From Methanomicrobiales archaeon (GTDB lineage: Archaea > Halobacteriota > Methanomicrobia > Methanomicrobiales > Methanospirillaceae): a DNA stretch of 64,000 nucleotides. The first letter of the stretch is position 1, and the number at the start of each line of letters is the position of its first letter. Positions 3,559-48,869 of this stretch are shown in pieces. A model generated the notes under the pieces. The model was given only the letters and a program-made list of their open reading frames with translations. It did not search any database and was not told the DNA's origin. The stretch covers positions 1 to 64,000 of the forward strand of contig JAAYCY010000065.1 of the NCBI GenBank assembly GCA_012729535.1, read 5' to 3'. The position numbers were made by a program, and so were the translations under genes.

Positions 3559-3737
3559 AACGATTAAACCCATATTATAATATTTTTAACAGGTGGAATC
3601 CATCAGAGTAATCGTAAGGTATTCGGTAAAATCCGGTTTCGATAGGAAAAAAAGGTATACAATTTCTACATGGCTCTTCGTCAGCTTCAGGGGGTATGAT
3701 TCAGATTGAATGAAAAAAGAGTTAGGGTAATACCTGC

Positions 3738-4493
3738 TTAATCAGGAAGAGGAAATGGCCACATTGCAATGGTATTGGAAGGAATTCCCTCGTGCGATTT
3801 CCCATAAAAATTTGCTGCATAGCCTCTAGTTGGATCAAAGTTTCCTTTCACCGTTTCAAGTGAAATTGTATTTTCCGCAACAGGAGAAGGTGAAGAACTT
3901 GACGGATCAAACGTCTGCAGAATCAGGTGGTTTTCATCTGGATCGATAATGAGCCGATCCTGTCTCTTTATATAAAACTCATTATCAGGGACATCACTGA
4001 CACCACCCCTTAACATGTAACTGTCATATTTATCGCCAATTATCAGATCTGCATCCCTGCTGTAACCAAGAACACCAGAAGAGACTAAAAGATGATTTCC
4101 ATCCGTTTTCACAAGGGAATAGATGATATATCGTGAAGAGTTCTCTGCCAGATAATCTGCAAACTGACGAAGTGTCCACTCCGAGTAGGGTTCTGTCTTG
4201 AGAGGTGCAGAAAAATATTCTTCATCTATCACATTGAATGGAAGCGATCCACTCTTTAATTGTATCAGAGCATTGGATATAACCTCCGGACTCTGAATGA
4301 TTTGTTTTCCGTCAAATAATGTAGTCCCCTTTTCTATTGTGCTTATCCCATCAGTCGGGGAGATGTTGTTTTTCTCTAACGTAACCAGAGGTTTGATAGG
4401 TTTTAGTTCAATAGCCGCTACAGAAGAAACCGAGATGAGACAAAGAAATAATCCGGTAATCATCAGCAATATCAGAATCATTCGATACTTCAT
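3738..4493 (-). CDS. Secreted paralog A of a lineage-specific three-gene family
   Basis: A 251-residue exported protein. The start is ATG 4493, where the signal peptide (about residues 1-26, MKYRMILILLMITG…) begins and AGGGTG lies upstream. It shares with the next two genes an N-terminal segment after the signal peptide, the block WTLRQFADYL, the phrase GVLGYS followed by D-x-I-x-GDK/QYD, and a proline-rich WPxPxP end. No catalytic motif is recognisable. With genes at 4645-5400 and 5544-6305 it forms a tandem array on the minus strand, and its upstream DNA is nearly identical to that of the middle copy. Function is unknown; a cell-surface role is inferred from export only. Confidence 0.75.
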   Translation of the reverse strand: MKYRMILILLMITGLFLCLISVSSVAAIELKPIKPLVTLEKNNISPTDGISTIEKGTTLFDGKQIIQSPEVISNALIQLKSGSLPFNVIDEEYFSAPLKTEPYSEWTLRQFADYLAENSSRYIIYSLVKTDGNHLLVSSGVLGYSRDADLIIGDKYDSYMLRGGVSDVPDNEFYIKRQDRLIIDPDENHLILQTFDPSSSSPSPVAENTISLETVKGNFDPTRGYAANFYGKSHEGIPSNTIAMWPFPLPD

Positions 4494-4620
4494 AACACAC
4501 CCTAATATGAGCAAATGGTAGTGAACATATATATATTTACTGGTGGAGAACGGACAATTTAGGATCATGCAGAAATGCAAGTGAAATACTTTTCGAACGG
4601 GTGAAATTTCAATTAAAAAA
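4494..4620 (-). promoter_or_regulatory. Duplicated promoter region, copy 1
   Basis: Read on the minus strand, a TATA-like ATATATATAT tract (4528-4537) lies 35-45 bases before ATG 4493, with CAGTAAA on its upstream side as a BRE-like element and AGGGTGTG as ribosome-binding site. The whole block from the start codon to about 4620 is repeated with few changes at 5401-5530. The far end (TTTTTTAATTGAAATTTCAC on the minus strand) is the T-rich tail of the preceding gene. Confidence 0.6.
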
Positions 4621-4644
4621 GAAGAAAACAGGTCATTCAACTGT

Positions 4645-5400
4645 TTATTCTGGAAGTGGATATGGCCACAGCGTTAGGATAACAATTGGGGGATCCCAAT
4701 CCGTTCTTCCGTAAAAGTGATTTGGGAAGCCACCGTTAGAGGCAATTCGACTATTAAAATGTTCAATCATAATTGTGTATTCCAAATCCGGGGACGGGGA
4801 TGAACTTGATGAATAAAATTCCTGAATTATCAACTGGTTTAATTCTGGATCAATTATTAGCCGATACGAACCTAAGAGCCTCGTTAAACCGCAGTAGTCA
4901 GGGTAAACAGGACAAGAAAAATAATACTTGTCATATTGATCTCCGGTGATGAGATCTATACTCGGGCTGTACCCCAGAACTCCTTCAGATATCAAAATAT
5001 AATCTCCATTCGTTCTCATGAGTGAATATTGAATAGTCCGTGAAGAATTCGCTTCAAGATAATCCGCAAACTGACGAAGAGTCCAATCCCAGTATGGTTC
5101 TCCATGAGGTCCTGCCTGATCTTCAGATTCTTCATCACCATAGTTTAGATAGATACCACTCTTCATATTTTTTAGTGCATTGGATATAACCTCCGGACTC
5201 TGAATTATCTCTGTCCCGTCAAATAATCTGGTCCCCACTGCTTTTGTGAGAGTATAAGAAGTCGGGGAGAGATTTTTTTTCTCCAATGAAGCAACGGATT
5301 TGGAAATTTTGGGTTCAAGTGCCGTTACAGAAGAAACAGAGAGTATACAGAGCAATAATACTGTTATCATCAGCAATGCCAGAGTTTTTCGATACTTCAT
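4645..5400 (-). CDS. Secreted paralog B of a lineage-specific three-gene family
   Basis: A 251-residue paralog of the genes on either side. The start is ATG 5400 (MKYRKTLALLMIT…), giving a signal peptide of about 27 residues ending near TALEP; AGGGTG precedes it. WTLRQFADYL and GVLGYS are conserved, as is the WPYPLPE end. It carries two cysteines in the sequence around SCPVYPDYCG that the other copies lack, a possible disulfide loop. It is closest to copy C over the first 60 mature residues (LEPKISKSxASLEKKNLSPT) but shares its promoter with copy A, which suggests gene conversion or two rounds of duplication. Confidence 0.75.
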   Translation of the reverse strand: MKYRKTLALLMITVLLLCILSVSSVTALEPKISKSVASLEKKNLSPTSYTLTKAVGTRLFDGTEIIQSPEVISNALKNMKSGIYLNYGDEESEDQAGPHGEPYWDWTLRQFADYLEANSSRTIQYSLMRTNGDYILISEGVLGYSPSIDLITGDQYDKYYFSCPVYPDYCGLTRLLGSYRLIIDPELNQLIIQEFYSSSSSPSPDLEYTIMIEHFNSRIASNGGFPNHFYGRTDWDPPIVILTLWPYPLPE

Positions 5401-5530
5401 AACACACCCTAATATGAGCAAATGGTAATGAATATATATATATTTACTGGTGGAGAACGGACATTTTAGGAAGCAACAGAAATGCAAATGAATACATATC
5501 GAACTGGTGAAATTTCAATTAAAAAAGAAA
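5401..5530 (-). promoter_or_regulatory. Duplicated promoter region, copy 2
   Basis: Near-identical to 4494-4620. On the minus strand it has a TATA-like ATATATATA tract centred near 5438, a BRE-like CAGTAAA before it, and AGGGTGTG before ATG 5400. Retention of the full spacer implies that the tandem duplication included the promoter and that A and B are likely co-regulated but separately transcribed. Confidence 0.6.
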
Positions 5531-5543
5531 AATTCTGGTTTAT

Positions 5544-6305
5544 TCAGGTCCCAGGCATTGGGATTGGATTTGGCCATATTGATAGAATCACAACCGGACG
5601 AACCGCAGATACGACACCATAGAAAGGTCTCGCTCTGCCGAAAAAAGAAATTGTATTAGGACCGCTGGGAGTCATACTAAGATCTATTAATTCTTCCGAG
5701 AGAGGGGTTGGATTACCTTCCACATAATTTTGTAATACTAATTGATTTTCATCGGGTAAAATCGTGATGCGCCATTGACTAGAATGTTTCCGAAATACTC
5801 CATCGTTTGCAACATTCTCAATTCTAGTGCCATAAACATCAAATTTATCTCCGGTGATCTGATCCTGTACCAAACTATATCCAAGGACACCACTTGATAC
5901 TGATGTTAATGATCCAGCTGTGGTTTCAATTGAATAAAGGAGAGTATTCGAAGTATTTGATGCAAGATAATCGGCAAACTGGCGAAGAGTCCAATCCCAA
6001 TAGCGAACCTCTTCAGATGGCGAACTATCAGGTAATTCTTCCTCACTACTCAACTCATGAACACTCTTCAGCAATTTAAATGAATCAGATAATACGGTTG
6101 AATCCTGAATAATCTCTGTCCCGTCAAATAATTTGGTCCCCACTGTTTTTGTGAGAGTATAAGTAGTAGGGGAGAGATTTTTTTTCTCCAATGAAGCAAG
6201 GGATTTAGATATTTTTGGTTCAAGTGCCATTACAGTAGTAACCGAGATAATCCCCAGCAATAGGCAGGTTATCATCAATAATACCAGAAGTCTACAATAT
6301 CTCAT
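5544..6305 (-). CDS. Secreted paralog C of a lineage-specific three-gene family
   Basis: A 253-residue protein with signal peptide MRYCRLLVLLMITCLLLG… and the family blocks ALEPKISKSLASLEKKNLSP, WTLRQFADYL, GVLGYS and a WPNPIPMPGT end. The promoter differs from those of copies A and B: a TATATAAAT-type box appears on the minus strand near 6340. This copy is at the head of the array and may be the oldest. No enzyme or binding motif is recognised. Confidence that it is a gene is high because three diverged copies keep an open frame and the same residues. Confidence 0.75.
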   Translation of the reverse strand: MRYCRLLVLLMITCLLLGIISVTTVMALEPKISKSLASLEKKNLSPTTYTLTKTVGTKLFDGTEIIQDSTVLSDSFKLLKSVHELSSEEELPDSSPSEEVRYWDWTLRQFADYLASNTSNTLLYSIETTAGSLTSVSSGVLGYSLVQDQITGDKFDVYGTRIENVANDGVFRKHSSQWRITILPDENQLVLQNYVEGNPTPLSEELIDLSMTPSGPNTISFFGRARPFYGVVSAVRPVVILSIWPNPIPMPGT

Positions 6306-6545: not shown

Positions 6546-6734
6546 TTATAACGCCACAAAACCCTGTTCTTCAACTATTTTTTGTCCATCCGGACTTAAT
6601 ACAAAGTCAAGGAACTCTTTTGCCAGGCCTTCAGGTTCTCCCTTAGTCACAAAGTATAACTCACGGGACAGGGGATATGAACCAGACTTGACCGATGCAA
6701 GCGTTGTTTTCCATATATTTCTCTCTATTGCGAA
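6546..6734 (-). pseudogene. PstS phosphate-binding protein remnant (C-terminus only)
   Basis: On the minus strand, codons down to TAA 6548-6546 read SVKSGSYPLSRELYFVTKGE, then EFLDFVLSPDGQKIVEEQGF and VAL. This is the C-terminal lobe of a phosphate-binding protein and aligns with the end of the intact copy at 9034-9930 (TVKEKAYPLSRPLLLLTKGQ … FLDGMKGQEIITEEGF). Upstream the frame meets a stop at about 6735, so roughly 85% of the gene is missing. It is a dead second PstS locus. Confidence 0.7.
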
Positions 6735-6837
6735 TTATATGAAGGGCATGGTGAATTGATAATAGATGAAAAAGAGAATACCTGAATTATCCTGATTTTG
6801 TTTCTTTTCTGAAATTTTCATGATTATCAGAAAAGAT

Positions 6838-7374
6838 TCAATTACAGGAACGTACGATATCCTGTATCGCCTTTACAGTCATTTCATTCTTCAGGACCTT
6901 TCCCTTCTCCTCACTAATGCCCTCAATCGTACCAATAATATCCATCTCATGTTCCCGTGCAAAGTGCCTCATCGTGTCAATGGTATGTCCTGTCCCTGAT
7001 TCTGCACAAGTTGCAATCAGAATTACTTTTTTCCCTTTTAACATTTTTTTATGCCATAATGAAAAAGTCCGATCAATGAATGCTTTCAGTGAGGCACTTA
7101 CATCAGAGAAATAAACCGGAGATCCCAGAATAATCAGATCACTTTTCAGCATCTTATCAGCAATTTTTTGAAAATCATCACGGACGACACATTTGTCTTT
7201 TTTTGCACATGACAGACAGGACTTGCATGGATGAATGTTCATTCTGGCAACATTGTAGCACTTGTTTTTATATCCCGGAATTTTTTCAGATGATAACTGT
7301 TTGTCAAATTCTTTCAGTATTGCGTTAGTATTTCCGTTGTTTCTTCTACTTCCACAGATCATAATAGTTTTCAT
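6838..7374 (-). CDS. Iron-sulfur flavoprotein, NADPH-dependent FMN reductase family
   Basis: A 178-residue flavodoxin-fold protein. It starts MKTIMICGSRRNNGNT, the FMN phosphate-binding GSxRxxGNT loop. Cysteines C50, C53, C56 and C62 form the compact C-x2-C-x2-C-x5-C motif of archaeal iron-sulfur flavoproteins (Isf), which ligates a 4Fe-4S cluster. GSPVYFSDVSASLKAFIDR is the second FMN-contacting loop. Known Isf proteins accept electrons from ferredoxin and help against O2 or peroxide; that role here is inferred. It lies just downstream of the ribbon-helix-helix gene on the same strand with a 65-bp spacer that shares a 12-bp motif with that gene's promoter. Confidence 0.88.
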   Translation of the reverse strand: MKTIMICGSRRNNGNTNAILKEFDKQLSSEKIPGYKNKCYNVARMNIHPCKSCLSCAKKDKCVVRDDFQKIADKMLKSDLIILGSPVYFSDVSASLKAFIDRTFSLWHKKMLKGKKVILIATCAESGTGHTIDTMRHFAREHEMDIIGTIEGISEEKGKVLKNEMTVKAIQDIVRSCN

Positions 7375-38759: not shown

Positions 38760-40574
38760 TCAGACCTGGTATTCCCTGATATACATGATCGGATCACCAG
38801 TAACATTTGCAACTTTTCCGGTATACTTAACATTTGGAATTGATGTTAGTCCCTGGATATCATAGACACGAGGTCCGTACTGGTAACCTGAATTTTCATA
38901 CCACCATTCAGGATAACCGATATTTTTAATGCTTTTATTCTGGACATCGTTGTAATTCCCATTTCTATAAGTTACGATAACATTTTTCGTCAGGTCCATC
39001 CAGGAATTGATGGTATCTATCGCAGTCTGGTTTGTGTATGAGGTGAGAAGCATTCGTGCTTCAGTAACATTTTGTTTATAAAGTTCGAGTGCTTTTGCTT
39101 CAATTTCAGGTTGTCTGGCAAGAGCGGCTCCTTCTAACCGCGATTGTTCTTCTTTAATTATCGGAGAAATATTTGAATACATGAACCGGGCCCAGTTCTG
39201 CAGGAGTTCAAATGGCCAGAAGGCAGTATTAAGATTAAAATCCCAATGAGAACCGTGGAGATAGGGTGTCGGGAGCCGGTAGATGCCTGCATAGAAGGGA
39301 ACATAACAGGTCTCTGCAGGTGAGGAAAGCCCAAGCCAGCAGATACCTCCGATGATTGCAGGAAGATCTTTCCGAGCCTGGCAGACATATGAATACCCGC
39401 AGGGATCTGTTGAAATCGGTCTAGCCCAGGAACCGGGTTTTAATTGCCCATCATATAGAGCATCATGCAGATCAAACGGCCCCCAAACCCGGTACGGATC
39501 TCCGAACGGGCCACCTGCCGGAGCAGCGGTGAGATCAAATACCGTTCCTTCATAATGGTCTCTGAAGAGCGAGAATGTTTTTGATGTATTAACCGGAGCG
39601 TCTGGTTTTATTGAGAATGGGTAGGCTTTCGAGAATGGTCCCTCTACATATGGTGATAATTTCAGGGATGGGGCGAGAACATCCATAATTCTCCATACCC
39701 TGCTTTGGGAATAATATGGATGGGAATATTCACCGATTCCAAACACCTTTGCCCAGTCAAGTGGTCCGTCTGATGGATCATACCATCCCATTTTTTGAGC
39801 ATCATCAAACAGTTTTTTTGAAAATAACTGTTGATGGTTATTGTAATCAAGTTCCCGAATCCGGAATTCGTTAGCAGCAACAAATACATGACCAGGCGTG
39901 ATTTGTTGTGCTGCCCAGTAACCACCGTTCCCATCCGGTGTTCCCCCGCACATCTCGATAACCCACGCATCCTCCGGATCTGCAAAAATCAGGGTTTCTC
40001 CAGTTCCGTAATATCCATAGTTCTCAATGAGGTCACCAATGAGCAGCACCGCTTCTCTGGCGGTTTTACATCGTTCCAGTGCAATATTTGAGAGTTCTGA
40101 ACTGTAGAAAATTCGTTTGTCCTTTTCCGCAGAAGGATGAATTTTAGCATAGTCCGTACATTCTCCGGACATTAACTGGTGCTCGTTAATTATTCCGTAA
40201 CTGCCGGTGATATAAGCGTACGTATGGTTTATTTCCGGAATCTCTCCAATAACCACCGATTCAGTTCCTGATGATTGAGCTTCTCCTAAAAATTCTCCTC
40301 CTGAATTTGGATCATAAATTACCTGTCTTTTCGCTCCTTCCATGTGATCTTTTGCCGGAACATGCCTGAAAACAACCATGTCTTCTCGTATCCGGTTAGC
40401 AACAAGGCCTGTTCCAAATCCGTCATTTGTATGACCAACAAAGACCGATCCGTCTTCTGAAGCCTCATCAGTCACCACAAAAGTAGTGCATCCACAACCT
40501 GATTGGATGAGAAACAAGAAAACCAGGATCATGCCAAACAATCCTTTTAATAATTTCATGAGTTGTGATTCCAT
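38760..40574 (-). CDS. Secreted C69-family dipeptidase
   Basis: 604 residues from ATG 40574 (ATG 40559 is an alternative). Signal peptide LLKGLFGMILVFLFLIQSGC, then C29 in GCTTFVVTDEASEDGSVFVG: in C69 peptidases the nucleophile is the first cysteine of CTT after removal of the leader. GHTNDG, YGIINEHQLMSGECTD and AWVIEMCG are family motifs. It cleaves dipeptides with broad specificity, here outside the cell. A neighbouring amino acid importer makes peptide salvage plausible, by inference. Confidence 0.87.
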   Translation of the reverse strand: MESQLMKLLKGLFGMILVFLFLIQSGCGCTTFVVTDEASEDGSVFVGHTNDGFGTGLVANRIREDMVVFRHVPAKDHMEGAKRQVIYDPNSGGEFLGEAQSSGTESVVIGEIPEINHTYAYITGSYGIINEHQLMSGECTDYAKIHPSAEKDKRIFYSSELSNIALERCKTAREAVLLIGDLIENYGYYGTGETLIFADPEDAWVIEMCGGTPDGNGGYWAAQQITPGHVFVAANEFRIRELDYNNHQQLFSKKLFDDAQKMGWYDPSDGPLDWAKVFGIGEYSHPYYSQSRVWRIMDVLAPSLKLSPYVEGPFSKAYPFSIKPDAPVNTSKTFSLFRDHYEGTVFDLTAAPAGGPFGDPYRVWGPFDLHDALYDGQLKPGSWARPISTDPCGYSYVCQARKDLPAIIGGICWLGLSSPAETCYVPFYAGIYRLPTPYLHGSHWDFNLNTAFWPFELLQNWARFMYSNISPIIKEEQSRLEGAALARQPEIEAKALELYKQNVTEARMLLTSYTNQTAIDTINSWMDLTKNVIVTYRNGNYNDVQNKSIKNIGYPEWWYENSGYQYGPRVYDIQGLTSIPNVKYTGKVANVTGDPIMYIREYQV

Positions 40575-42207: not shown

Positions 42208-43395
42208 TTATTCCGCCCGTAACGCTTCTATCGGATCCATCTGTGCTCCACGCCAGGCCGGGTAAAGACCGGAGAAAATACAGATAACAAGGCCTACAGC
42301 CATTGCATACGGAAGATGAATAAGACTTTCATACGTGAAGAAATACTTCACACTTCCGACCATTATTAAGATGAAGAAATATCCCATGACCAGGCTGAAA
42401 ACCATTCCCAGTATTGCCCCGATAATCCCGATAAGTGTTGCTTCATAGACAAACATACGAAGGATTTCTTTCTTTTGTGTTCCAATACTTCGTAGTACTC
42501 CTATCTCCCGTATTCTTTCGGTAACAGACATCATCATAATATTAAAAATGGATACTGCTGCGACAAGAAGGGAAATACTAGCGATGAGAGAGGCGAAACT
42601 TGTAATAGTAGTTACCGATGATGAAATCATGGACACCATTCGGCTACTGTCCTGTACCCTGACATTCTCCTCGCGCCGGTTCATCTGAGACTCAATTGCA
42701 TTTGTTACCGTTTCAGCATCATTAATATCATTCAGGACGATATTTGCCTGTCCAAATTCATCTTTTGCCCCAAAAAGGGATTCATACTTATCCTTAGTCA
42801 TCACAATGGCACTATCGGTATTCAGGTCCATGGTCATACCCCGGGATTCGATAATTCCTGACACTTTCACACCATTTCCACCGACTGAAAACCTGGATCC
42901 TAATTCCAGGTCATTATCTGATGCAAACCTGGTACCAATAAGAACCGAATTATCACTACTGGGATATCCACCGGCAGTCAGGTTATCAAGGATGGTCCTC
43001 ATCGCTGATACTTCAAGACCATACACCTGGGTATTCCATTCATCAGACCCTTTTTTTACCTTGGCACGGATATTATGAACACCATACACAAACCCATATT
43101 TTCCTACTATCTTTTCAATATCCTTGAACTGTTTTTTAGTCAGATTGTCACTCTCGCTCCCCATCCCTGGAGGGCCCCCTCCCCCTCCGCCTCCTTTTCC
43201 GGAATATGGATTGACGGTTAATTTATCTGCCATCGATGAGAGAGAATCAGTCACTGATGCGGTCATATTTGTTCCAAGCATTCCCATGGATGCGATCGAA
43301 ATAATGCCTATGGTAATTCCAATTGCGGCGAGGATGGATCTAAGGATATTAATTCTGACGTTCCTGACAGCCATCGCAAAAATGATATCTTTCAT
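42208..43395 (-). CDS. MacB/FtsX-type ABC transporter permease
   Basis: 395 residues: one N-terminal membrane span (about 17-40), a large extracytoplasmic MacB-core domain, and three C-terminal spans (about 265-290, 320-345, 357-380) with the FtsX motif MMSVTERIREIGVLRSIGTQ. The extracytoplasmic domain carries a glycine run near residue 70 (SGKGGGGGGGPPGM). It overlaps the ATPase gene by four bases. MacB-type systems push substrates or lipoproteins outward by mechanical coupling and do not import. Confidence 0.9.
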   Translation of the reverse strand: MKDIIFAMAVRNVRINILRSILAAIGITIGIISIASMGMLGTNMTASVTDSLSSMADKLTVNPYSGKGGGGGGGPPGMGSESDNLTKKQFKDIEKIVGKYGFVYGVHNIRAKVKKGSDEWNTQVYGLEVSAMRTILDNLTAGGYPSSDNSVLIGTRFASDNDLELGSRFSVGGNGVKVSGIIESRGMTMDLNTDSAIVMTKDKYESLFGAKDEFGQANIVLNDINDAETVTNAIESQMNRREENVRVQDSSRMVSMISSSVTTITSFASLIASISLLVAAVSIFNIMMMSVTERIREIGVLRSIGTQKKEILRMFVYEATLIGIIGAILGMVFSLVMGYFFILIMVGSVKYFFTYESLIHLPYAMAVGLVICIFSGLYPAWRGAQMDPIEALRAE

Positions 43396-44084
43396 GATAC
43401 ATTCCCCACATCTGAAACGATTTGTCCATCCCGGATTGTGATGATGCGATCTGCCAGAGCAGCAATTCCAGGATCATGTGTGACGATGATCAGGGTTTTT
43501 CCCCTGGAATTTAACTTTTTTAACATATTCATGACGAGGTGACCTGTTTTTGAATCCAGATTTCCTGTTGGTTCATCGCACAGGAGAATTTTAGGATTAT
43601 TTACAAGCGAACGTGCAATTGCCACCCGTTGTTGTTGACCACCTGACAATTCACTTGGTTTATGCTTTGCCAACTCTTCATTTATCCCTACCATGGCAAG
43701 AAGTTTCGAAACCCTGCCTGATGAGTCCCTTTTACGGTATTTCAGCGTATATGGATATTCCACATTCTCATATGCAGATAAGAGAGGGAGGAGATTGAAT
43801 TTCTGGAAAATAAACCCGATGCTAATCAGACGAAGATGGGTAAGTTCGTAATCGCTCATCTGGGTGATACTCCTGCCATCTATTTTTAGATCACCAGAGG
43901 TTGGCACATCCAGACAACCAAGCTGGTTAAGCAAGGTTGATTTTCCTGATCCTGATGGTCCGATAATGGCAACGAATTCTCCGGTTTTAATTGATAGTGA
44001 GATATTATCAAGTGCGAGGACATCACCTGAAACAAGGGGATAAATTTTTGAGATATTTTCCAGGTGTACAACTTCATCTGTCAT
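43392..44084 (-). CDS. LolD/MacB-type ABC transporter ATPase
   Basis: 230 residues. Walker A GPSGSGKSTLLN, signature LSGGQQQRVAIARSL, Walker B ILLCDEPTGNLD, and the LolD-family FIFQKFNLLPLLSAYENVEY. It lies between the extracytoplasmic protein gene (12-base gap) and the permease gene (four-base overlap), so the three form one operon. Confidence 0.93.
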   Translation of the reverse strand: MTDEVVHLENISKIYPLVSGDVLALDNISLSIKTGEFVAIIGPSGSGKSTLLNQLGCLDVPTSGDLKIDGRSITQMSDYELTHLRLISIGFIFQKFNLLPLLSAYENVEYPYTLKYRKRDSSGRVSKLLAMVGINEELAKHKPSELSGGQQQRVAIARSLVNNPKILLCDEPTGNLDSKTGHLVMNMLKKLNSRGKTLIIVTHDPGIAALADRIITIRDGQIVSDVGNVS

Positions 44085-44096
44085 TTTTAATCCGGA

Positions 44097-45461
44097 TTAT
44101 TTGGAGGAGTTATTAATTTTCCTTCCCCCACCTTTTTTCTTCCAGATAATCCAGGCAACAACGATCACTATCACTATGATAATTCCGTAGATGATCTCCA
44201 TTACTGGAAGGCTGTTCATTCCTGAACCCATTCCTGACAATGGATTCATCGGATTTACTCCTCCCCGATTGCTTCCTGAAGTGCCAGTAGCACCGCTGGC
44301 CTGATTAAACCCTGATGGTGGTGATCCTCCTGTCGGAAATCCACCGCCGGGAGCTCCGCTCATTTCTGAACTAAATACTCCTCCCCCTGCCTGATCGTTA
44401 TCCAGGTTTACCGTCTTTGAAAACTGGTTTCCAGACTGATCTTTGTACTGCACAACCAAGGGAATAGATTTAAGATTTTGTGGGACTGTTAATTCAAAAC
44501 TAGAATAATCTCCGGAAGTAATAGTGCCGATTACATACTTCTGATTTGGATTTCCACTATCATCCGTAGCACTTTCAAGTGCTACAATAACTCCATAGGC
44601 ATCAGATATTCCTGCATTTGAAACATCTCCTGAAATGGTTACTCCACTAGACCCGGAAGTAATTTCTACATTGTTTATGACCGGATCTGCTGCCTGTTTA
44701 TCGGCCCCAAGGCTGACAGGGATAGAATACGTGGTTTCATGGGCATTCATACCGCAGGTATATCGAATATCAAATTTGAGTTCTGATTCAGTTTCCGGCG
44801 TTATCTCAAATTGAATCGCTTTCTCTGAATGGGCCGGGAGGTTTCCGATGAATGCCGATGTCCGATTGACTTTTATCCCATCTCCTACCGGAATGATGGT
44901 AATACCAGTCATGTTGACACTTTTTGCATTCCCTATCATCAGGCTGATTTTACTGGTAACACCCTTTGAAAAAACCTCAGGTATATTTGATATTGATACC
45001 GCTACCTGCGGTTCTTCAACACGAACCGGAACATTGTATCGCAGACTTCCTGCATCCCGGTAATTGATGTAAAAGGTAGGATAATAGATATTTTCAGGTT
45101 GATCTGCAAGGATGGTAAAGGTAAAATCCATGCTTGTTCCAGCTCCAATGGTCCTGCTGCTGGAATAAACATCACTGTTAAGGACAACAATGTCTTTTGA
45201 GATGAGATGGGCATCAGTGATGACTACGTTTGAATTGCCGGTATTTTCTATCGTAAAGGTCAGAAGGCCGACATCACCTGTCATGAGGACAGATGGATCG
45301 AGATTCACATTGGTGACAGTCACACGCCCGGCTGCATCGATGCTTTCGTTACTCTCGGCTGCCATGACACACTGGAAAAGGAAAAAAGCGAGGATTAAAA
45401 TTGTAATCATCGCTAACCCTGAAGAATAGATTTTTTCAGATAAAGGCATTTTTTTCATCAT
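44097..45461 (-). CDS. Membrane-anchored COG1361-like (CARDB) partner of the export operon
   Basis: 454 residues: N-terminal signal or anchor (about 11-33), repeated beta-sandwich domains of the COG1361/CARDB type (VTNVNLDPSVLMTGDVGLLT; VSISNIPEVFSKGVTSKISL; VINNVEITSGSSGVTISGDV), a Gly/Ser/Pro/Met-rich linker (about 365-425) and a C-terminal span (IIYGIIIVIVIVVAWIIWKK) with a basic tail. It sits where bacterial operons have MacA, but it is not a MacA homologue. It likely reaches outward as the adaptor or substrate-binding part of the exporter. First gene of the operon. Confidence 0.8.
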   Translation of the reverse strand: MMKKMPLSEKIYSSGLAMITILILAFFLFQCVMAAESNESIDAAGRVTVTNVNLDPSVLMTGDVGLLTFTIENTGNSNVVITDAHLISKDIVVLNSDVYSSSRTIGAGTSMDFTFTILADQPENIYYPTFYINYRDAGSLRYNVPVRVEEPQVAVSISNIPEVFSKGVTSKISLMIGNAKSVNMTGITIIPVGDGIKVNRTSAFIGNLPAHSEKAIQFEITPETESELKFDIRYTCGMNAHETTYSIPVSLGADKQAADPVINNVEITSGSSGVTISGDVSNAGISDAYGVIVALESATDDSGNPNQKYVIGTITSGDYSSFELTVPQNLKSIPLVVQYKDQSGNQFSKTVNLDNDQAGGGVFSSEMSGAPGGGFPTGGSPPSGFNQASGATGTSGSNRGGVNPMNPLSGMGSGMNSLPVMEIIYGIIIVIVIVVAWIIWKKKGGGRKINNSSK

Positions 45462-45813
45462 TATCCTGGTTTTTTGATAATTGTTTGTTCATTTATATGG
45501 ATTTCTCCATACCTGATTTGCAACTTATGGTATATCTTAATAAAGAACTGGAATTTCCTTGTTTAGTTCTCACGCAGAATTACATCTGGTGATAAGAAAG
45601 CCATCACCAACAACGAGATACAGGAAACCGATCTCATGCACAATTTCTGTTTGAGGTTGACATACCACCACAGTGAACAAATTTCTTTACTACTGGTAAG
45701 TATAAGCAAAGATAAATAAGATGATACTATGAGGTAATATATCCAACCAGGTGGTTCAAGTTTTATTATGTATGAGTAAAAAGAACCATTCAATACATAT
45801 TCCCAGGTCTTTT
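45462..45813. other. Gap between the export operon and a secreted protein
   Basis: About 350 bases with no supported gene. It should hold the divergent promoters of the export operon and of the gene at 45814. An upstream in-frame extension of that gene (from 45751) is not favoured because the signal peptide starts at 45814. Confidence 0.5.
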
Positions 45814-46356
45814 ATGAATCAAAACAGACGATTACTTGTAAAAATCCGACATATCTCCATAATAATAGGGATTTTAATCCTGGTTTTCTGCCAGCCAGTA
45901 ATGGCCTCAGATATGTCCACTTCTATTGAACCTGCAACCATTTCATTTCTCCTTACTGATTATGGAGAAAAAGATATTCTTCGTGTTTCACTCATGAAAG
46001 AAGGTGAAAGTAATAAAAATGGTATGTCCAGACAGTACCAGAACATCAGGTTTGACAGGGAGTCAGGAATAGTTGAATGGACTCCATGTAATGACAATTC
46101 CTGCACGATAACTTCTACAAAGACAGCCGGAGGAAAAACTGGCCGTGATCAACTCATATTGGAAGTGACATTTGCCAATCCATCTATCGATGTCAGTTCA
46201 TGCTATGGCGTTCCAACCTGTGAACGACTTCGGGGAGGAACAACAGTAAAAAGTGGGATGCTGGAGGGCTTTTTCAAAACCGGAATGACATATTCCATCT
46301 CTCTGGACAGTTTAAAATCCGGTATCGGTGAAGCATATATATCCACGAAACTCTGA
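45814..46356 (+). CDS. Secreted protein of unknown function
   Basis: 180 residues from ATG 45814, with AGGT at good spacing. Signal peptide: basic MNQNRRLLVKIRH then ISIIIGILILVFCQPVMA. The mature part has four cysteines (WTPCNDNSC, SSCYGVPTC), probably two disulfides, and a beta-rich pattern. Not recognised. It is alone between two divergent or converging operons. Confidence 0.7.
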   Translation: MNQNRRLLVKIRHISIIIGILILVFCQPVMASDMSTSIEPATISFLLTDYGEKDILRVSLMKEGESNKNGMSRQYQNIRFDRESGIVEWTPCNDNSCTITSTKTAGGKTGRDQLILEVTFANPSIDVSSCYGVPTCERLRGGTTVKSGMLEGFFKTGMTYSISLDSLKSGIGEAYISTKL

Positions 46357-46432: not shown

Positions 46433-48076
46433 TTAGCCCTGAATTTTTTTTCCGATTTTATCCAGATCTTTTAAAAACTCTCTCATATCCGGGTATCTTT
46501 CTGCAGGGTCAGCTTTCAGGGAACGGGCAATGATTTCATCAAATAGTCTAAGTCCGTTATTCATATCTGAAGGCAGAACATACTGGTTTTTCTGGATCCT
46601 GATGAATAACTCCCCGATATTTTGTGTTCCATACGGGGGGGTTCCACAAAGCAGTTCGTAGAGGAGGACTCCCAATTGGTAAATATCTGTCCGCTGGTCA
46701 CCATTTCCATATTTTTCAGGAGCAAGTTGTTCAGGACTTGCATAAAAAAGAGAGAAACTCGTATTCCTGGTATCCTCACTCCGTTCAATAAACCGGGAAA
46801 GACCCCAGTCAGTAAGTTTTACTATTCCATCCGGTGTGAATAGGATATTGCCTGGTTTAATGTCCCGGTGGATTATTCCCTTTTCATGGGCATAACGAAG
46901 AGCTTCGCCAACCTGTCTGATGATTTTTATGGCATGAAGAGGAGGGACTGGGAGAGTTAAGTCCTTAAGAGAACGGGGGACATACTCAAGTTCGACGTAT
47001 GGGACCGGAAAAATATTCTGGTCAAAAATTTGTGCAATGTTCGGATGAGAGAGGTCTTTCCAGACAGACATTTCATTTAAAAATGTCCTGCCACTTGTTT
47101 CATCCGTGGAAAACGGAATTTTTAGTGCCACAGTCTTATCTGTGTCATTGCGAACCGCACGGTATACGATTGCCATGCCACCGCTTCCGATAACTGATAT
47201 GTCATGGTACTTGGTTGTAAATTTTTCTGGAAACGTGGGAGGCAGATTGTGCTGGATAAGGGGCAGAGACCGGGTGATTGTCTGATCGTTTTCAATATCC
47301 GGCCTTATATCTTCGTTTTTCTGAATAAAATGGCTAGTTATCAGAGAAAAAGAAGCTCCAGGGATTATTACAATAAGTGCTGCGAGAATTGTCATAGGAA
47401 GAGAAAAAACAACCGGAATGCGGACTGACATCAGGAGAATAATTACAATTACCGCAAAGAGAATATGACCCTGGTGGAGGGGAACGAGTGGACGGGATTT
47501 ATATACCGAAATGGCCTGAATCAATGAAGATAATGCCAGATAAGCAAGAAGCCCGAAGGTTGCATACATGGTATTGATAAAAGGATCCATTATATGTTCT
47601 GATGATCGGAGAGAATAGAGGATGATGGTAAACCCGCCAATTAGCAGGGCACTGATAAAATGACCACCTGCTAATAACAGGGAGGCTCTTTTGGATACCG
47701 TAAAGTGATAAAGTTTTCCCGTGGCAAATCCGGCAGCAATCATAATTGCCAGGATAACCAGACTTACTCCCACAGATACAACGGGAAACTGCCAGTCCTG
47801 AATGGGAAAGTCAGCAACAGGCGGTGCATTGTCTCGTCTCCCCATCCATTCCGGACTAAAAGGGCCGTTAATTGGCCCGGATACATTAAGAAATGCAGGA
47901 TTTTCCCTTTCCTCGAAATAATCTCCCTCATCATCACTCGTTCCCAGGGCAGAGATATTTGATCCCGGAGCAATATTCGTGTCCACACCCTCGGATTCAG
48001 CAAAAACTGATCCGGGCAGAAGGAGAAATCCGGTAATAATCCAAAAAATTGTATAGGTTATATATTTTTTATTCAT
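46433..48076 (-). CDS. Membrane Ser/Thr protein kinase
   Basis: 547 residues. Signal peptide (1-26), an extracytoplasmic stretch to about 95, five or six membrane spans (about 97-120, 131-156, 165-190, 203-218, 220-250), then a Hanks-type kinase domain (289-540): glycine loop GSGGMAIVY, K319 in VALK, E335, HRDIKPGN 403-410, D423 in DWG (instead of DFG), SPEQLAPE. All catalytic residues are kept. It follows an HTH-FHA gene on the same strand with 28 bases between. The FHA protein is a likely phosphothreonine partner, by inference. Confidence 0.92.
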   Translation of the reverse strand: MNKKYITYTIFWIITGFLLLPGSVFAESEGVDTNIAPGSNISALGTSDDEGDYFEERENPAFLNVSGPINGPFSPEWMGRRDNAPPVADFPIQDWQFPVVSVGVSLVILAIMIAAGFATGKLYHFTVSKRASLLLAGGHFISALLIGGFTIILYSLRSSEHIMDPFINTMYATFGLLAYLALSSLIQAISVYKSRPLVPLHQGHILFAVIVIILLMSVRIPVVFSLPMTILAALIVIIPGASFSLITSHFIQKNEDIRPDIENDQTITRSLPLIQHNLPPTFPEKFTTKYHDISVIGSGGMAIVYRAVRNDTDKTVALKIPFSTDETSGRTFLNEMSVWKDLSHPNIAQIFDQNIFPVPYVELEYVPRSLKDLTLPVPPLHAIKIIRQVGEALRYAHEKGIIHRDIKPGNILFTPDGIVKLTDWGLSRFIERSEDTRNTSFSLFYASPEQLAPEKYGNGDQRTDIYQLGVLLYELLCGTPPYGTQNIGELFIRIQKNQYVLPSDMNNGLRLFDEIIARSLKADPAERYPDMREFLKDLDKIGKKIQG

Positions 48077-48104
48077 ACAGGATCCGTTTTTCAGATGCCA
48101 CTGT

Positions 48105-48869
48105 TTATTCAGCGATAAAAAGGAACCTCGCAGACATATTACCTGTTCCGAGAATTATGATATCTCCGTCACTAATCTCTCTTCGTGTATTTGGAGGAAT
48201 AGGTTCAGTATTGATAAATGTACCAGAGGTACTCCCAGAGTCCTCAATCTCCCACGAAGCTTTATGATATACTCTCGCATGAGGCCTGCTGATACGCGAG
48301 ACAGATTTGTAATCCGGAGAGAGCATGACGATATTTTTTTGCTTTTGTGAATAACTTGCATCACTGGGATCAATTCTTCCAAGAGAGATTTTCTCTCCGG
48401 ATAATGAGAATATCTTTCCCTCATCTGGTCCGGATGTCAGGTACAGGCAGGGAGAGGTAACTCCAAACTGTGAACTGATCTCTTTTCTGATTGAACTTAA
48501 CTGGTCAGCGAGATCTGCATGGGTGATGGTAAGCGGGACTTTTGAAAACATGGAAAGATTGGTAATAATCTGCTCCATACCGCCTGGTGCAAGTGAATAT
48601 TTCCAGACCGGGTGAATTCCGGTCATGGTCTCTGAGCTCATTCCTGCATCTTTTCTTACAAGACCAGCAAGAAGGAGTTTGTCCATATGCTTCCTGATGT
48701 TCTCATAACTTGTCCGGGTGATGGTTGCAATTTCCTTCAATTCCATGGAGCGGCTTTCCAGGGAGGATAGAATTTGCAGCCGGACGGGATTTGCAAGAGC
48801 ATTCAGATACTCTGACATCTCAACGAGGTACTCAGGACTTCGCTTCCCCTGTATGGTATTGTCCGTCAT
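48105..48869 (-). CDS. Winged-helix (ArsR-like) plus FHA domain regulator
   Basis: 254 residues from ATG 48869, with GAGGT nine bases upstream (GTG 48896 and ATG 48884 are alternatives). Residues 15-75 are an ArsR-type winged helix (LNALANPVRLQILSSLESRS, TRTSYENIRKHMDKLLLAGL). Residues 140-254 are an FHA domain with its phosphothreonine-binding residues: GR 163-164, SRPH 193-196, and G-S-T-S-G-T-F-I-N 211-219. It precedes the membrane kinase gene. A model in which the kinase phosphorylates a partner or itself and the FHA domain recruits it to change DNA binding is inferred. Confidence 0.88.
   Translation of the reverse strand: MTDNTIQGKRSPEYLVEMSEYLNALANPVRLQILSSLESRSMELKEIATITRTSYENIRKHMDKLLLAGLVRKDAGMSSETMTGIHPVWKYSLAPGGMEQIITNLSMFSKVPLTITHADLADQLSSIRKEISSQFGVTSPCLYLTSGPDEGKIFSLSGEKISLGRIDPSDASYSQKQKNIVMLSPDYKSVSRISRPHARVYHKASWEIEDSGSTSGTFINTEPIPPNTRREISDGDIIILGTGNMSARFLFIAE

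Follow-up and report, generated by a model that had tools for sequence, protein, structure and literature searches.

A conserved HTH-FHA and membrane Ser/Thr kinase gene pair of Methanomicrobiales as a probable archaeal analogue of EmbR-PknH

Introduction

The closest described counterpart of the locus analyzed here is bacterial. In Mycobacterium tuberculosis, embR and pknH share an operon, with embR as the upstream gene, and EmbR has the domain order wHTH-BTAD-FHA (PMC9239209). Partial likenesses are offered by the FHA proteins GarA, OdhI and DgcB, which control enzymes, not DNA. DgcB binds its own phosphothreonine (pThr) tail with its FHA, the +3 residue being a key position (PMC6733907), and FHA docking of OdhI raises its phosphorylation by PknG about 45-fold (PMC8546545); FHA-borne kinase docking is known for both OdhI and GarA.

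Among archaea, the ArnA/ArnB-ArnC/ArnD system of Sulfolobales also links an FHA protein to Ser/Thr kinases, in a network with effects on gene expression. DNA binding by ArnA alone was not detectable (PMC10470591). According to a paper of 2019, work on archaeal FHA proteins had been limited to two, both from Thermoprotei (PMC6509490), and the studied proteins are of the Zn-ribbon type of that group (PMC6509490; PMC10470591). The Arn network, the studied case of a route from archaeal Hanks kinases to gene expression, runs via several proteins.

Here, we describe a locus in a 64,000-nucleotide stretch of DNA from a Methanospirillaceae archaeon (hereafter the window), in which writer, reader and DNA-binding domain are encoded by two adjacent genes that are kept across a methanogen order. 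A reading of this DNA made from the sequence alone had called such an arrangement not well described. For archaea this judgment stands, in that no paper on HTH-FHA proteins in methanogens was found in the open-access literature. It does not extend to bacteria, where embR-pknH (PMC9239209) has equal logic and gene order, so that the principle is already known. Our preferred reading is that the pair is an archaeal analogue of EmbR-PknH: a membrane Hanks kinase would phosphorylate the HTH-FHA protein (probably at Thr5), the FHA would read the mark, and DNA binding would change. The probability that we assign to this reading, which leans on analogy, is roughly 0.62.

The HTH-FHA protein and its linked kinase

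Both ORFs are located on the minus strand of the window, the HTH-FHA gene lying upstream of the kinase gene with a gap of 28 bases, as the sequence-only reading had described. The first ORF (48105..48869; ORF and translation, Pfam, AlphaFold model) encodes an HTH-FHA transcription factor of 254 aa, designated P0001. Its ArsR-type winged-helix core, with the helix TSYENIRKH, was delimited by Pfam at residues 25-73 (48651..48797, minus strand). The HTH_5 and HTH_20 matches in this core and the FHA match (PF00498) at residues 184-241 were all above the Pfam cut-offs (HTH_5, 29.4 bits, cut-off 22; FHA, 44.6 bits, cut-off 20.7). The FHA domain as a whole, defined by Pfam, structure match and residue alignment, comprises residues 137-254 (48108..48461, minus strand). 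In the AlphaFold model (pLDDT 77-79), residues 10-112 resembled ArsR-family repressors (CzrA, Z about 13), which together with the Pfam result bears out the winged helix proposed from the sequence alone, while residues 137-254 matched the FHA structures of DgcB (Z 16.6), GarA (15.6), EmbR (14.9) and ArnA (14.3). In aligned HTH-FHA members, the T53-H61 block of the HTH is nearly invariant.

Despite the CzrA-like fold, which P0001 has in common with the ArsR/SmtB proteins, its HTH is without a cysteine metal-binding motif. The sole Cys of the protein (C141) lies outside the HTH, which consequently has no cysteine metal site, and a metal-sensor reading was rejected on this ground; the NCBIfam metalloregulator model scored 36, below its cut-off of 55. 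Having a single Cys, P0001 also carries no Zn-ribbon, in contrast to ArnA, in which an N-terminal four-Cys Zn-ribbon is found and no HTH. The input of P0001 appears to be its FHA.

Like EmbR, P0001 combines an N-terminal winged helix with a C-terminal FHA, its gene precedes that of a transmembrane Ser/Thr kinase, and the FHA folds of the two proteins superpose (Z 14.9). However, the DNA-binding domain of EmbR is of the OmpR/PhoB type and is accompanied by a BTAD, whereas P0001 has an ArsR-type HTH, no BTAD (Pfam) and, as a further difference, the N-terminal Thr that is invariant in HTH-FHA proteins. Compared to PknH, the linked kinases of Methanomicrobiales often have several TM segments or a NosD beta-helix ectodomain. 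With HTH type, BTAD, tail and kinase architecture all differing, the protein is to be seen as an analogue of EmbR and not as a member of its family.

The second ORF (46433..48076, minus strand; ORF, Pfam, hydropathy) encodes P0002, a membrane Ser/Thr kinase of 547 aa. In its hydropathy profile, a signal peptide is followed by about five more TM peaks, with a short ectodomain, and a cytoplasmic kinase domain occupies residues 286-542 (46451..47221, minus strand; Pkinase E 1.4e-43, above the Pfam cut-off). The nearest solved relative of this domain is PknB. Residue alignment confirmed the earlier description of a polytopic kinase with all catalytic residues: the VAIK Lys (K319), the helix C Glu (E335), the HRD Asp (D405), N410 and the DFG Asp (D423) are present, the DFG motif reading DWG (423-425) both in P0002 and in all 82 linked kinases examined. 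Within this set of 82, conservation is 100% for K319, D405, N410 and D423, and 98% for E335. On paper, P0002 would thus be catalytically competent. In general, the linked kinases carry a signal peptide together with one TM segment or about five, and their ectodomains range from very short to about 400 aa; NosD/right-handed beta-helix models scored in the long ectodomains of four of them (E 1e-14 to 5e-32).

A second HTH-FHA/kinase pair, at 35% identity, was observed in Methanospirillum (L002, genome G000 contig C17:21974-22705; orthologues L038-L043 and L045). The kinase of this type has four TMs and no ectodomain, and HCD replaces HRD in the window's genome.

Conservation of the gene pair

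Homologues of the HTH-FHA protein were identified in 134 of 199 sampled Methanomicrobiales genomes, a count from which two spurious matches were left out. Among 393 sampled genomes of the phylum, the full-length protein was confined to this order, the only other match covering just the HTH. In a scan of GTDB genomes, the 80 loci listed bore Methanomicrobiales labels or unspecific names (e.g. Euryarchaeota archaeon), with the exception of a single contig labelled Thermoplasmata, which is possibly mis-binned.

Of 111 distinct HTH-FHA genes, 14 are too close to a contig or locus end, so that 97 were assessed for neighbours. In 95 of the 97, a kinase gene on the same strand is located directly downstream, and in many pairs the HTH-FHA stop and the kinase start overlap. 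The sequence-only reading had asked whether such neighbours co-occur in other methanogens, and they do, with a membrane kinase as the partner; what it had named as evidence to the contrary, HTH-FHA genes occurring mostly without a kinase nearby, was not what we found. In the two exceptions, the kinase gene is either convergent and 87 bp off (L158) or 3.9 kb off (L124). L158:6846-9134 (minus strand) is the sole case of a kinase convergent to the HTH-FHA gene, out of operon order.

When presence and absence were scored in the 199 genomes of the order, which are related and not independent, so that a p-value would be indicative at most, 132 had both genes, 2 the HTH-FHA gene only, 7 the kinase gene only and 58 neither. 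Clustering of the neighbours at 53 loci showed that the HTH-FHA and kinase genes are the only recurring conserved ones (49 and 45 loci; the next cluster, 15), and this clustering revealed no third gene conserved across the order. Judged from sequence and gene order, the best explanation is that the pair represents a two-gene signalling operon specific to Methanomicrobiales. The idea that the two genes are chance neighbours or an assembly artefact, with products that act separately, has practically no probability left: the order-wide synteny, with 95 of 97 genes adjacent and many complete genomes included, rules it out.

An apparent remnant of an HTH-FHA N-terminus with an in-frame TGA was noted at L343 (genome G184, contig C4:120450-120590). 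Neither an intact HTH-FHA gene nor a Hanks kinase gene was found in this genome, perhaps as a result of recent loss.

Three sampled Methanoculleus genomes each contain a single FHA and a single above-cut-off Hanks kinase, encoded by adjacent genes, and outside Methanospirillum every FHA detected in the 16 FHA-positive genomes checked belongs to an HTH-FHA protein. In some genera the pair is nearly the whole phospho-Thr repertoire found, which should allow kinase, site and regulon to be assigned with little redundancy.

The trees of the two proteins were compared on 41 pairs, taken from 18 genomes that have two to four each. The patristic distances of the HTH-FHA proteins and the kinases correlated with r 0.757, an agreement inflated by the fact that adjacency alone makes genes co-inherit. 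Swapping of the kinases within genomes lowered the mean r to 0.395, and the observed value was reached in 1 of 5000 cases. Most paralogue clades appear in both trees which, in combination with the matching distances, indicates that the paralogues were inherited as units.

The phosphate site of the FHA

The sequence-only reading had described the FHA of P0001 as complete. This is correct as regards the fold, which is intact, and the residues Arg165, Ser194, Arg195, His197 and Thr214, which are retained; however, the canonical Asn of the STNGT loop is replaced by Ser215. The same position holds Gly or Ser in 51 of 51 aligned members. The residue replaced is the Asn that contacts the peptide in other FHAs (N97 in DgcB). 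Its absence could mean weak pThr binding or a changed site; of the arguments against the proposed mechanism, it is the main one.

It might be argued from this loss that the FHA has no phospho-binding role, that it serves as a dimerization or partner module, and that the kinase acts by phosphorylating the winged helix. The FHAs of GarA and DgcB do bind unphosphorylated partners too (PMC6733907). We nevertheless regard this alternative as improbable, since the remainder of the site is strongly conserved in the 51 aligned members: G164, R165, H197 and Ser213 do not vary at all, only Ser or Thr occurs at position 194, and 50 members have Arg or Lys at position 195. Arg165, His197, Ser213 and positions 194 and 195 are the phosphate-contacting set of other FHAs. 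Reading of pThr by the FHA of HTH-FHA proteins is plausible but not assured.

An invariant threonine in the N-terminal tail

Alignment, codon usage and pLDDT point to Thr5 (T5; codon at 48855..48857, minus strand), in the N-terminal tail of P0001, as a candidate phospho-acceptor. The corresponding position was found in other members by counting 12 residues back from the helix-1 motif ELSEYL. It was occupied by Thr in 126 of 126 sequences analyzed by script, and in 140 of 140 after 14 more, which the script pattern had missed and which are not truncated, were read by eye. The sequence set forms 32 clusters at 70% identity, and ACA, ACG, ACC and ACT are all in use at this position (the four codon counts being 41/37/32/16 in the 126 sequences). 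The pLDDT around T5 was under 50 even when the AlphaFold alignment covered the tail, and on the basis of the model the tail is probably disordered. Residues following T5 are mostly hydrophobic (I/L/V at +1, and L/I/V at +3 in 75%). Among 17 aligned HTH-only relatives, Thr is found at the place of T5 only in L354; the others have no tail or a different residue. Our prediction from these alignments is that T5 is phosphorylated, and the invariant residue provides a single-residue handle for experiment.

A tail Thr and an FHA fold nearest to those of DgcB and GarA are features that HTH-FHA proteins have in common with the GarA/OdhI/DgcB group. In that group the tail directly precedes the FHA, whereas in HTH-FHA proteins it precedes a winged helix. 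That the HTH-FHA protein may bind its own tail, as GarA, OdhI and DgcB do, is something we infer only from this analogy.

An EmbR-like scheme would dispense with the tail switch: the FHA would only dock the factor on the kinase after its autophosphorylation, which would either keep the factor at the membrane and off the DNA or expose some other Ser/Thr for phosphorylation, and Thr5 would be structural. The operon order is that of embR-pknH, a system in which interaction as well as phosphorylation depend on the FHA (PMC9239209), an activation-segment Thr is present in 69 of the 82 linked kinases, and the spacing between T5 and helix 1 is fixed, with no indels, which makes a structural role of T5 possible. 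We consider this scheme unlikely, as it gives no account of why Thr5 is the one invariant residue in a tail of low model confidence, nor of its absence in HTH-only relatives.

Proposed mechanism

In the analogue of EmbR-PknH that we favour, the kinase ectodomain or TM bundle would respond to an envelope cue. The kinase would then autophosphorylate, and the resulting pThr, probably in the activation segment, would dock the FHA of the HTH-FHA protein, the tail Thr5 of which would be phosphorylated in turn. Capture of pThr5 by the FHA, in cis or across an ArsR-type dimer, as in GarA, OdhI and DgcB, would alter DNA binding by the winged helix; likely targets would be the pair's own promoter and, in some lineages, the MacB-type operon. 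Evidence against this scheme includes, besides the absent FHA Asn, the 13 of 82 linked kinases that have no Thr in the activation segment. We thus infer a path from an outside signal through the kinase and the HTH-FHA protein to DNA, in which the kinase-to-factor logic is drawn by analogy with EmbR-PknH, and the docking and tail capture by analogy with OdhI, GarA and DgcB.

Upstream DNA and the MacB-type transporter operon

Upstream alignments in Methanospirillum and Methanoculleus showed no clear operator palindrome before the HTH-FHA gene. In Methanoculleus (L011, L014, L021 and others), a block of about 40 bp preceding the HTH-FHA start, GTGCACAACCTTCATCAGAGACCTCGTGAAAACATACAGC, is little changed over about 20 genomes and is probably the promoter and possibly an operator. 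Two further candidates were rejected, namely a direct-repeat-like motif located further upstream in Methanoculleus, which by eye extends across the apparent end of the preceding gene, and GAGAA-TTCTC arms upstream of the HTH-FHA gene of the window, which are not kept in relatives and occur also at window position 39675.

In the window, the kinase gene is followed by one small gene of opposite orientation and then by a MacB-type transporter operon (42208..45461, minus strand, as the pair), identified by Pfam and recurrent linkage and regarded as a candidate target or co-sensor. Pfam assigned its three minus-strand genes to a CARDB protein (44097-45461), an ABC ATPase (43392-44084) and an FtsX/MacB permease (42208-43395). 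The small gene (45751-46356, plus strand), convergent with the kinase gene, encodes a secreted-looking protein without a Pfam match and is conserved in this position in several Methanospirillum genomes.

A MacB_PCD gene lies within 8 kb of 11 of 45 HTH-FHA genes (22 genomes), the number expected from genome-wide MacB_PCD gene counts being 1.1; the link emerged only by targeted tblastn and not from neighbour clustering. Methanospirillum and genome G037 have the operon downstream of the pair and on its strand; in Methanofollis, Methanocalculus (L134) and genome G007 it is on that strand too but upstream; and Methanoregula carries it downstream in opposite orientation. That the association recurs in different layouts speaks for a function, although the count of lineages is small and most pairs are without it.

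The excess of CARDB-ABC-FtsX operons beside HTH-FHA genes, in three arrangements, would fit a pair that regulates the MacB-type transporter, or senses flux through it, and does not act as a general envelope sensor, with a logic comparable to that of bacterial BceRS-BceAB. This view, which is compatible with the analogue of EmbR-PknH, is doubtful: 34 of the 45 pairs lack such a neighbour, as do three sampled Methanoculleus pairs, and no motif common to the promoters of the pair and of the transporter was found in Methanospirillum. Somewhat short of an even chance is the wider proposal that an order-wide kinase and a T5-switched ArsR-type factor, MacB-coupled in several lineages, constitute the first archaeal Ser/Thr equivalent of a two-component system.

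Other kinases and FHA proteins

Several kinases and FHA proteins outside the pair were also recorded. At L291 (genome G000, contig C57:1-9500), a gene for a TPR-repeat kinase (3650-6256) is located about 0.5 kb from one for a small separate FHA protein (FHA at 6712-6909), the two forming a possible third phospho-Thr module; small FHA proteins occur in other Methanospirillum genomes checked as well. A Hanks kinase of genome G033 (L292:220-2142) carries a TIR domain at its N-terminus and is an orphan, unlinked to an HTH-FHA gene. Genome G006, in which no FHA was found, has four Hanks kinases (L289, contig C34:6800-15300), at least one of them with NHL repeats and TPRs, and the two that were read also carry DWG.
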